A stretch of DNA of 64,000 nt. Origin: Candidatus Nitrosocosmicus agrestis. GTDB taxonomy: Archaea > Thermoproteota > Nitrososphaeria > Nitrososphaerales > Nitrososphaeraceae. The position numbers and the translations under genes are program-made. The notes below the pieces were generated by a model that searched no databases, was not told the DNA's origin, and saw only the letters and a program-made list of their open reading frames with translations. Positions 17,109 through 47,428 of this stretch are shown piece by piece. How positions within the stretch are numbered: the stretch's first letter is position 1; each line of letters starts with the position of its first letter. The DNA lies in assembly GCF_008389435.1 (NCBI RefSeq), contig NZ_VUYS01000001.1, positions 124,001-188,000 on the forward strand, written 5' to 3'.

Positions 17109-18482
17109 ATGAATGGCTATAGCAATAAGACCAACGTAAAACCTTTGCATATTGGTTTTGATGACACTGATTCGGTAAATGGTAGATGTACTACCCATTT
17201 ATCATATCTAATAACAAAAACACTTTTAGAAAGATTTCAAGTCGAGTTTTTGGATTTACCCCTTTTAGTTCGACTAAATCCAAATGTTCCATTAAAAACA
17301 AGAGGCAACGGAGCTGTTTGTTTAAGGATCAGAGGAAGAAGTCAAACGCATCATGAAAGAATTAGAGCAGAAATAGCACAGATGATAGAAAACTACTCAG
17401 AAATAGGCAACGGAGCAAATCCAGGAATAGTGTTTTACGAAAATGACACCATAAGTAATGATTTGATTCAATTTAGTGAAAATGCAATGGATTCCATTCT
17501 CAGCAAACAATTGGCCATAAAAATAGCCAAAAACAATAATATAGAATTTATAGGTTTTGGAAAAGAGTATGGGCTTGTAGGAGCCCTCGCAGCCGTAGGG
17601 TGTACGTTGAATTCTGATCACACATTTGAAACAATCGCATACAGAAGTGAAGAAAATTTAGGTACACATAGGGATACAGATTGGCTCAGAGTAAAAAAAT
17701 TAAGCGAAGAAACATATCCATATACCTATAACAATTTTGACCAAAAAAATTTTAGAGTATTGATCACTCCGCATGGCCCGGATCCTGTATTCTGCGGCAT
17801 CAGGGGAGAAGATCCTCTACTCACGTCCTATTTTCTGAAGAATTTGTGTATTAAAGAGCAGTTAGATGGATATATGATATTTAGAACAAATCAAGGTACA
17901 AATTTACATCTGACAAGGGAAAAAAGTGTGCAAGAAATCATGCCTTTTATGTCAGGAGTTATCAATTGCAAAGTAATCTCAACTCCATTGACAATCAAGG
18001 GTGGCCATGTGATTTTTAAGATAAAAGACAAGTTTAACAAAGTATTACCAGTTGCAGTCTATCAACCTACAGGCCTGACCAAGCTTGTAAGTTTGTTACA
18101 TCCAGGAGATAGAATAGAAGTAGGATATGGCGTACATCTAAAATCAGAAAACCAGCTAACTCTTAACTTGGAATATTTGATCATTAAAGAACTTGTAAAG
18201 ACGTATGAGGAAAAAAATCCGATTTGTAATAAGTGTCTAAAAAATATGAAATCGGAAGGTATGAACAAGGGATATCAGTGTAAAAGATGCAAATCAAAAA
18301 ATAGAAGTAAAGAAAAGCTATACATAGAAACAGAAAGAAAAATTGGATGTGGTTTATACATTCCAGAACCAATTGCCCATCGTCATTTAACAAAACCCAT
18401 CAATAGGTATGGGATGGAAAAATCTTTTGACAGATTAGAGATTTTGAATATAATCAAAACCATAAAATGGATAGAAAAGTAG
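17109..18482 (+). CDS. tiaS: tRNA(Ile2) 2-agmatinylcytidine synthetase
   Basis: Adds agmatine to C34 of the AUA-decoding tRNA-Ile, an archaea-specific modification. The N-terminal kinase-like domain begins HIGFDDTDSVNGRCTTHLSY, the family's signature. RLNPNVPLKTRGNGAV and GLVGALAAVGCTL follow. An OB-fold region and a C-terminal zinc ribbon (ICNKCLKNM, YQCKRCKSKN) complete the 457 residues expected of the family. ATG start at 17109. The TAG stop (18480-18482) overlaps the 3' end of the convergent initiator-tRNA gene by three bases. Confidence 0.93.
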   Translation: MNGYSNKTNVKPLHIGFDDTDSVNGRCTTHLSYLITKTLLERFQVEFLDLPLLVRLNPNVPLKTRGNGAVCLRIRGRSQTHHERIRAEIAQMIENYSEIGNGANPGIVFYENDTISNDLIQFSENAMDSILSKQLAIKIAKNNNIEFIGFGKEYGLVGALAAVGCTLNSDHTFETIAYRSEENLGTHRDTDWLRVKKLSEETYPYTYNNFDQKNFRVLITPHGPDPVFCGIRGEDPLLTSYFLKNLCIKEQLDGYMIFRTNQGTNLHLTREKSVQEIMPFMSGVINCKVISTPLTIKGGHVIFKIKDKFNKVLPVAVYQPTGLTKLVSLLHPGDRIEVGYGVHLKSENQLTLNLEYLIIKELVKTYEEKNPICNKCLKNMKSEGMNKGYQCKRCKSKNRSKEKLYIETERKIGCGLYIPEPIAHRHLTKPINRYGMEKSFDRLEILNIIKTIKWIEK

Positions 18483-19102: not shown

Positions 19103-19147
19103 TGCGGGAGGTGGGATTTGAACCCACGGACCCCTAAGAGATGAGGT

Positions 19148-19163
19148 ATCTCAATCCCTGGTT
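19148..19163 (-). other. tRNA-Leu intron at 37/38 (16 nt)
   Basis: Central helix CTCA/TGAG with bulges GAA and ATA. Cutting GA|A and AT|A leaves the loop CTCAGAA next to CCTCA. The outer helix TGAGG/CCTCA exists only after the other intron is gone. Confidence 0.82.
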
Positions 19164-19170
19164 TCTGAGC

Positions 19171-19184
19171 ATCGTGTTTTTAAA
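19171..19184 (-). other. tRNA-Leu intron in anticodon stem at 30/31 (14 nt)
   Basis: Central helix CGTG/CACG with bulges AGT and ATG and a minimal TT/AA inner helix. Cutting AG|T and AT|G joins TGAG to G and builds the 5-bp anticodon stem. Confidence 0.82.
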
Positions 19185-19240
19185 CTCACGCCTTTGACCA
19201 GGCTTGGCAACTCCCGCATAAAATATTTTTGAAAAGTCCA

Positions 19241-19248
19241 ACATATAT
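19241..19248 (-). promoter_or_regulatory. TATA-like element for tRNA-Leu
   Basis: AATATATGT on the minus strand lies about 25-32 bases upstream of the first tRNA base at 19217. Assigned by position. Confidence 0.45.
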
Positions 19249-45700: not shown

Positions 45701-47428
45701 CTAAGCCATAAAGTATCTTTGTGCGAGAGTCAACTCCTTTGCAGGGTCCACTGTTGCGATTTGTCCATCAATCTTCACTTCATATGTTTCAGGATCAACA
45801 GTTATTTCAGGAGTCTTGTCGTTCCACATCATATCTTTCTTACCTATACTTCTGCAATTCTTCACTGCTAGTGTTGTTTTCTCTAGACCTAATTTCTGAG
45901 GTACGCCTAATTCTATTGATTTCTTTGACATAAAGGTAAAAGAGGTTTTTTTGACAGCTCGACCCATGGCACCGAACATCGGCCTGTAATACACTGGCTC
46001 TGGTGTGGGTAAAGAAGCATTCGGGTCTCCCATTATAGACCATGCAATAAATCCACCTTTAAAGACCATTTTTGGTTTTGCTGCAAAGAAAGCAGTATTA
46101 TACATCACAATATCTGCATATTTGCCTACCTCAAGGGAACCCAGATAATCGGCTACACCATGTGTAATTGCTGGATTAATTGTGGTCTTCGCAATGTAGC
46201 GTTTTGCTCTAAGGTTATCATTATCCCCTTCTTCATCTTTTAGTTTTCCTTTCATTTTCTTCATTTTATCTGCTGTTTGCCATGCACGTATTACTACCTC
46301 TCCTATTCTACCCATTGCTTGGCTATCGGATGAATACATACTCAATACACCTTCATCATGCATGACATCTTCTGCTGCGATGGTTTCTGCTCTGATTCTT
46401 GAATCTGCGAATGCTACATCTTCTGCGACTGCGGGGTTAAGGTGGTGACAGAACATCAACATATCAAGGTGTTCATCAACTGTATTAACGGTGAATGGCC
46501 TTGTAGGATTGGTCGATGAAGGTAATACATTCTGTTCTGCTGCGATTGCTATAATATCTGGAGCATGTCCACCGCCTGCACCTTCTGTGTGGTAACTATG
46601 AACAACTCTCCCATCAATAGCATTAATTGTATCCTCCAAGTAGGCACATTCATTTATCGAATCTGTGTGGATTGCAACCTGAACATCTGTTAAATCTGCT
46701 GCACGCAGTGAAGCATCTAAAACTGCTGCGGTAGTTCCCCAGTCTTCATGATCCTTTAATCCACAAGCTCCGGCTTCGATCTGTTCCATTTGAGTTGCCA
46801 ACGAAGGATGAGAATCATTACCCTTTCCCAAAAATCCCCAGTTCATTGGAGTATCTTCTACCGATTCAAGCATTCTACTTATATTAAACGTACCTGGTGT
46901 ACAAGTAGTAGCATTGGTACCATCTGCAGGACCAGTACCACCGCCTATCATGTTACAAATACCGTTGCTGATTCCATCTATATATTGCTGTGGTGAAATC
47001 ATGTGAATGTGGGTATCAAAGTGTCCAGGAGTACATATTGTATGCTCACCTGCGGTTGCCTCGGTACAAGCTGAAACTATAAGGTTTCTATCCACATCAT
47101 CCATTACTAGAGGGTTTCCTGCTTTTCCAATACCTGCGATTTTACCATCCTTAATGCCAATATCACCTTTCACTATTCCTATGACAGGATCAATAACTAC
47201 GGCATTTGTGATAACAAAGTCCAAAGCACCAGCTGCATTGGTAACACCAGGCGTTTGGGCCAAACCATCTCTAAGTGTCTTACCACCACCGAATACACAT
47301 TCATCGCCGTGTGAAATCAAATCTTTTTCAATCTCAACAAAGAGATCAGTATCACCTAAGCGAATCTTGTCGCCTTTTGTGACTCCAAATAAATCCGTAT
47401 ATTGTTTTTTGGTTAATTTTAATACCAT
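45701..47428 (-). CDS. ureC: Urease alpha subunit
   Basis: Catalytic subunit that hydrolyses urea to ammonia and carbamate at a dinuclear nickel site. Full length at 575 residues. Visible features include the first nickel motif [15 protein letters not shown], the carbamylated lysine in [12 protein letters not shown], His ligands in [10 protein letters not shown] and [14 protein letters not shown], and the mobile-flap region [23 protein letters not shown] start, 16 bases after ureB. In AOA the released ammonia feeds AMO and the CO2 feeds the hydroxypropionate/hydroxybutyrate cycle. Confidence 0.98.

Follow-up and report, generated by a model that had tools for sequence, protein, structure and literature searches.

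Two introns of a tRNA-Leu(CAG) gene in an ammonia-oxidising archaeon and a predicted, structure-based bias in their order of removal

The minus strand of the window (the whole stretch of DNA analysed here, 64,000 nucleotides) carries, from position 19217 to 19103, a tRNA-Leu(CAG) gene of a soil ammonia-oxidising archaeon that is interrupted by two introns. This is probably a working, single-copy gene, whose two BHB introns would be cut by EndA, for which the genome encodes two different subunits, and whose exons would be joined by a tRNA ligase, with a strong bias towards removal of the stem intron (intron A) before the anticodon-loop intron (intron B) that is set by RNA structure and needs no separate factor.

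Results

The gene is matched by the Rfam tRNA model RF00005 at 19217-19103 on the minus strand with 38.4 bits (gathering score 29); ARAGORN did not find a tRNA-Leu(CAG) gene at this position, as is expected for an intron that lies outside the anticodon loop. The 115-nt precursor consists of exon 1 (19185-19217; 33 nt, tRNA positions 1-30 including D-loop insertions), intron A (19171-19184; 14 nt, TTTAAAAACACGAT) at site 30/31 inside the anticodon stem, exon 2 (19164-19170; GCTCAGA, positions 31-37, with the anticodon CAG), intron B (19148-19163; 16 nt, AACCAGGGATTGAGAT) at the canonical site 37/38, and exon 3 (19103-19147; 45 nt, positions 38-73, with a class II variable arm). Removal of both introns leaves an 85-nt tRNA with the acceptor stem GCGGGAG/CTCCCGC, the T stem GTGGG/CCCAC and the anticodon stem TGAGG/CCTCA (UGAGG/CCUCA in RNA) closing the loop CTCAGAA, and all three stems are perfect. 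The identity of the tRNA, its anticodon, the positions and lengths of the introns and the BHB anatomy had been put forward in an earlier note on this DNA, and direct reading of the sequence agrees with each of them.

The genome measures 3.2 Mb, with a completeness given as 98.9%, and its tRNA set was taken from Rfam matches (44 listed, from 150 scored of 258 candidates) read by eye; tRNA-Leu(CAG) was found once among the 44. An ATATAT sequence stands 31 nt upstream of the tRNA (19243-19248, minus strand), and all 15 genus loci, counting the window, have the same sequence at a distance of 31-35 nt; it is a probable promoter-like element resembling a TATA box. A nearby open reading frame (17109-18482, plus strand) resembles the tRNA-Ile2 agmatinylcytidine synthetase TiaS. 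Elsewhere in the window, an Rfam 5_ureB_sRNA match (46978-47275, plus strand, 45.7 bits) lies antisense within an open reading frame (45701-47428, minus strand) that presumably encodes the urease alpha subunit, and this match may reflect only conserved coding sequence.

The central helix of intron A is formed by CGTG (positions 25-28; 19187-19190, minus strand) and CACG (intron bases 9-12; 19173-19176, minus strand), flanked by the bulges AG-T and AT-G, in which the hyphen marks the splice site. Bases 27 and 28 of this helix are also used in the anticodon stem, and base 25 in the D stem. A four-pair central helix, two 3-nt bulges and splice sites within the bulges were found at the 30/31 site in 72 of the 72 stem introns parsed. 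The strict hBHBh' form, for which a passage of PMC7714728 asks for two or more Watson-Crick pairs in both the inner and the outer helix, is not what the 30/31 site of the window presents: its inner helix has at most two A-U pairs and its outer helix is not formed, so that this intron is of a relaxed form. When motif A was imposed, the lowest-energy fold of the window gene likewise held the four central pairs alone, with neither an inner nor an outer helix.

At the 37/38 site, CTCA (positions 32-35; 19166-19169, minus strand) pairs with TGAG (intron bases 11-14; 19150-19153, minus strand) between the bulges GA-A and AT-A, and the outer helix is supplied by the anticodon stem. The 3' strand of that stem and of the outer helix is CCTCA (positions 39-43; 19142-19146, minus strand), the partner of which is split in the gene between positions 27-30 (19185-19188) and position 31 (19170). 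The outer helix of the 37/38 motif is thus TGAGG/CCTCA, exactly as had been claimed, and the further claim that its 5' strand becomes contiguous only once intron A has been removed is borne out by this separation. By this anatomy both introns are of the BHB type, and they would be cut out by EndA and the exons joined by a ligase.

Two EndA-type genes (PF01974) are present in the genome. The first retains HAPYLV, and the second reads PSKYV at the place aligned with HSKYV in a solved chain, so that only one of the two genes keeps the histidine of HxPYLV/HSKYV, presumably the catalytic one. At the gene level this gives one putative catalytic and one putative structural subunit, a pair that fits the alpha2beta2, broad-specificity type. 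Thaumarchaeota endonucleases are described as alpha2beta2 in passages of PMC4090602, where such archaea are said to be rich in expanded motifs, and a passage of PMC12397907 reports that certain archaeal endonucleases cleave motifs of relaxed form.

An orthologue was present in 15 of 15 same-genus genomes searched (window included), with both introns in every one. A first set of 45 distinct loci, from which one duplicate record of the window had been dropped and in which L089-L091, L093 and L094 (other isoacceptors) were left unparsed, contained 41 loci with both introns, 3 with only the 37/38 intron and 1 with none. An enlarged set of 94 distinct parsed sequences held both introns in 71, only intron B in 7, only intron A in 1 and none in 15, so that the stem intron was present in 72 of 94; these counts should not be read as prevalences, since the patterns used to collect many of the loci themselves demand or forbid the stem intron. 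Five further loci were unparsed (L097, L102, L103, L131 and L189), and inspection by eye showed L131 to have neither intron and L189 to be cut off by a contig end. A pattern search of 300 genomes of the order matched the with-intron pattern in 78 and the intron-less pattern in 40; by reading of the lists, no genome matched both. The remaining genomes fitted neither pattern, and they included almost the whole of the large family f9.

A stem intron without a 37/38 intron was seen in L101, L102, L103, L256, L281, L293 and L301, and these genes, together with the seven that carry intron B alone, indicate that each intron can exist without the other. The tRNA-Leu(CAG) genes L102 and L103, from two relatives, carry extra insertions in the D loop and variable arm in addition to the 30/31 intron, apparently amounting to three noncanonical introns in one tRNA. 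By eye, L097 carries both the 30/31 and the 37/38 intron as well as a T-loop insertion, and its intron A helix has three of the four pairs; L294 similarly combines the two introns with a T-loop insertion. The 30/31 intron with the same central helix also occurs in tRNA-Leu(CAG) of records titled Bathyarchaeota (L256, L281 and L301, which lack the 37/38 intron) and Asgard (L291).

The four-pair helix of intron A (positions 25-28 with intron bases -6 to -3) was intact in all 72 stem introns parsed, where shuffled introns lead one to expect 1.3, and shifting the register to any other value between -4 and +2 left 0 to 2 of the 72 helices. Among the 78 introns parsed at 37/38, 54 had all four pairs of the intron B helix (shuffled expectation, 1.0). 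An all-prokaryote pattern scan served as a control; the helix was scored in 25 of its 80 listed stretches, and it was present without mismatch in 12 of 13 archaeal stretches and in 0 of 12 bacterial chance matches, which by our own reading contain no tRNA.

Base 27 pairs with an intron base before splicing and with base 43 after it, and the two pairings exclude each other. Of the 72 parsed stem introns, 51 show U/A/A as the triplet of base 27, its intron partner and base 43, while 13 show C/G/G and 8 show U/G/A, with no broken pairing combination among them, and U/G/A constitutes a wobble step between the other two. Among the matches listed, the intron-bearing U27 forms fall in one family and the C27 forms in others, so that the exchange between C27/G and U27/A may go back to only one or a few independent evolutionary events.

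Five leucine tRNAs were read by eye among the 44 tRNA-model matches listed: CAG, TAG (L035, with a 30/31 intron), TAA, CAA (L027) and GAG (L025, no intron). In tRNA-Leu(TAG) the stem-intron helix joins exon CGCA to intron TGCG (CGCA/UGCG in RNA) and was complete in 23 of 24 distinct sequences, against an expected 0.2; these were drawn from 35 loci, with L089, L093, L173 and L183 unparsed. Bases 27 and 28 therefore change jointly with their intron partners between isoacceptors. The second intron of L035 (G000:C38:5229-5449, minus strand) ends in TCCTA.A, an ending common to relatives, and suits site 37/38 less well than site 38/39, where three of four pairs were counted by eye. By eye, the tRNA-Leu(TAA) gene L042 (G000:C9:20050-20250, minus strand) apparently has a D-arm intron and an anticodon-loop intron.

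For the 41 orthologues with both introns, constrained folding was used to calculate how much free energy it costs to impose either motif. Motif A had a median cost of 4.5 kcal/mol in the precursor and 4.4 kcal/mol in the absence of intron B (n = 41). Motif B with three outer pairs had a median cost of 15.3 kcal/mol in the precursor and 5.5 kcal/mol after removal of intron A (n = 41), a precursor cost that arises partly by construction, as the outer helix demanded is the one that intron A splits; without this demand, the median for motif B in the precursor was 8.5 kcal/mol (n = 41). The corresponding values for the window were 3.5 kcal/mol for motif A and, for motif B, 15.3 kcal/mol with the outer helix, 8.0 kcal/mol without it and 6.3 kcal/mol once intron A was gone. 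In the full precursor, motif A was cheaper than motif B with outer pairs in 41 of 41 orthologues and cheaper than the outer-less motif B in 38 of 41. As a control, intron A was transplanted to the variable loop, and the cost of motif B fell in 41 of 41 (median 4.0 kcal/mol); this control restores motif B and thus identifies the interruption of the stem, where intron A sits, as the block. Unconstrained minimum-energy folding was also tried and was rejected as a test, since it displayed neither motif and gave no cloverleaf for the mature sequence, and for this reason the energies are to be read only as a guide.

In these folding models the second motif is predicted to form after the first intron is gone in 41 of 41 orthologues, the 37/38 motif with its outer pairs being cheaper each time once the stem intron was removed. 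The dependence that the earlier note had proposed, with the stem intron leaving first, is thereby upheld in folding; however, its expectation that an intermediate lacking intron B and retaining intron A should be wholly absent is too strong, given the median of 8.5 kcal/mol for the outer-less motif B and the cutting of relaxed motifs. The predicted order, A and then B, probably amounts to a strong bias without being absolute, because both motifs are minimal in this gene, two EndA subunits are present and some archaeal enzymes cut relaxed motifs. The inner helix of intron B comprises one or two pairs in 15 of 15 genus loci, which would leave the intron almost without a helix on either side until intron A departs, and at least three pairs in 10 of the 41 orthologues; the bias should be strictest in the genus of the window and looser in those ten.

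Discussion

The gene sequence directly shows both introns, the central helix of each and the stem of the mature tRNA, and from these a pathway can be proposed for the transcript. Bases 25-28 would be paired to the 3' portion of intron A, withdrawing bases 27 and 28 from the anticodon stem and base 25 from the D stem; with 27 and 28 so engaged, the outer helix needed by the 37/38 site would be missing. EndA would cut intron A first, and ligation would place base 30 beside base 31, whereupon bases 27-31 could pair with bases 39-43. Only at this point would the 37/38 site become a proper motif, with outer and central helices (type hBH), and intron B be cut. The strong bias in order would thus come from the structure of the RNA and not from a separate factor.

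An unlikely alternative, which nonetheless deserves weight, is that the introns are real and that an endonuclease tolerant of relaxed motifs removes them in either order or at random. The two subunits found here, the alpha2beta2 enzymes and many expanded motifs described for these archaea (PMC4090602) and the reported cutting of relaxed motifs (PMC12397907) all suit such a reading, as does the cost of only 8.0 kcal/mol for the outer-less motif B in the precursor of the window. Moreover, intron A is itself relaxed in the window, and an EndA that accepts it might accept a bare motif B in the precursor, while in the 10 orthologues with the longer inner helix that helix could replace the outer one. 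However, the inner helix has only one or two pairs in the 15 genus loci, and in nearly all orthologues (38 of 41) motif A costs less than motif B does even when no outer helix is demanded, both of which favour removal of intron A first. Removal of the 37/38 intron first is very improbable: apart from the existence of genes with intron B alone (7 of 94), nothing was found in its favour, and the outer helix of intron B is split by intron A, the motif favoured in the precursor in 41 of 41.

Two further readings were rejected. Different boundaries, either one composite intron or another mature sequence, have a negligible chance of being right; although the unconstrained precursor fold pairs 27-30 with 32-35, sliding the 3' partner of intron A by -4 to +2 destroys the helix (0-2 of 72 left), and A-only, B-only and intron-less genes all yield the same stem-loop. 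It is equally hard to credit a pseudogene, or a tRNA in decay that has picked up insertions by chance. The low unspliced Rfam score and the ARAGORN miss might be cited for such a reading, but this is the only Leu(CAG) gene found among the listed Rfam matches in a nearly complete genome, and it has perfect stems after splicing, a helix conserved in 72 of 72 and an upstream element in 15 of 15 genus loci.

Beyond the biased order, a stronger and broader version can be offered only tentatively, and we consider it more doubtful than probable: that the stem intron acts as an obligate two-step gate, holding bases 25, 27 and 28 and so blocking the full D stem, the anticodon stem and the second splice site until it is gone. 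Such a gate would operate in the leucine tRNAs CAG and UAG (the latter with a different second-intron motif) throughout a whole family of ammonia-oxidising archaea, and would persist because selection acts on a single base that alternates between two partners.

Processing order by motif dependence is already published for archaea. The tRNAscan-SE 2.0 paper states, in the sections consulted, that some introns lie so close that one must go before the second BHB can form, and reports 107 noncanonical tRNA introns in Thaumarchaeota, the same group of organisms, found by a repeated search since one intron hides the next (PMC8450103). These sections hold no list by tRNA or position and do not name the tRNA-Leu 30/31 site. 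Passages of PMC3978253, citing Sugahara 2007 and Tocchini-Valentini 2009, describe nested archaeal introns of which the last cannot form its BHB until processing of the others is complete, and list anticodon-arm introns for Crenarchaeota. There, likewise, the later motif depends on earlier removal; however, the introns described here lie side by side and not one within the other, and their dependence arises from the splitting of the second outer helix by the first intron and from the shared bases 27 and 28. According to the same passages, the red alga Cyanidioschyzon merolae has multi-intron tRNAs in which processing of the 37/38 motif invariably comes last, as is predicted here, but each algal motif can fold alone, whereas the second motif of the present gene would not fully fold until the first intron is gone.

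A 30/31 intron in tRNA-Leu of Thaumarchaeota was not named in the literature searched, which comprised titles, abstract openings and passages, and we make no claim that it is unpublished. The principle is already known, and this gene is a clear, conserved case of it; what is added here is the tRNA-Leu(CAG) member, its spread and the covariation of one base with two partners.

Taken together, these findings provide a compact and testable example of two splicing events whose order should be fixed by nothing but RNA structure, and the natural variants, with both introns, either or neither, allow the rule to be tested without designed substrates. The stem intron also accounts for the failure of a common tRNA finder to detect this tRNA-Leu(CAG). 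The need of base 27 to pair successively with two partners gives the two-step path a clean evolutionary signature.
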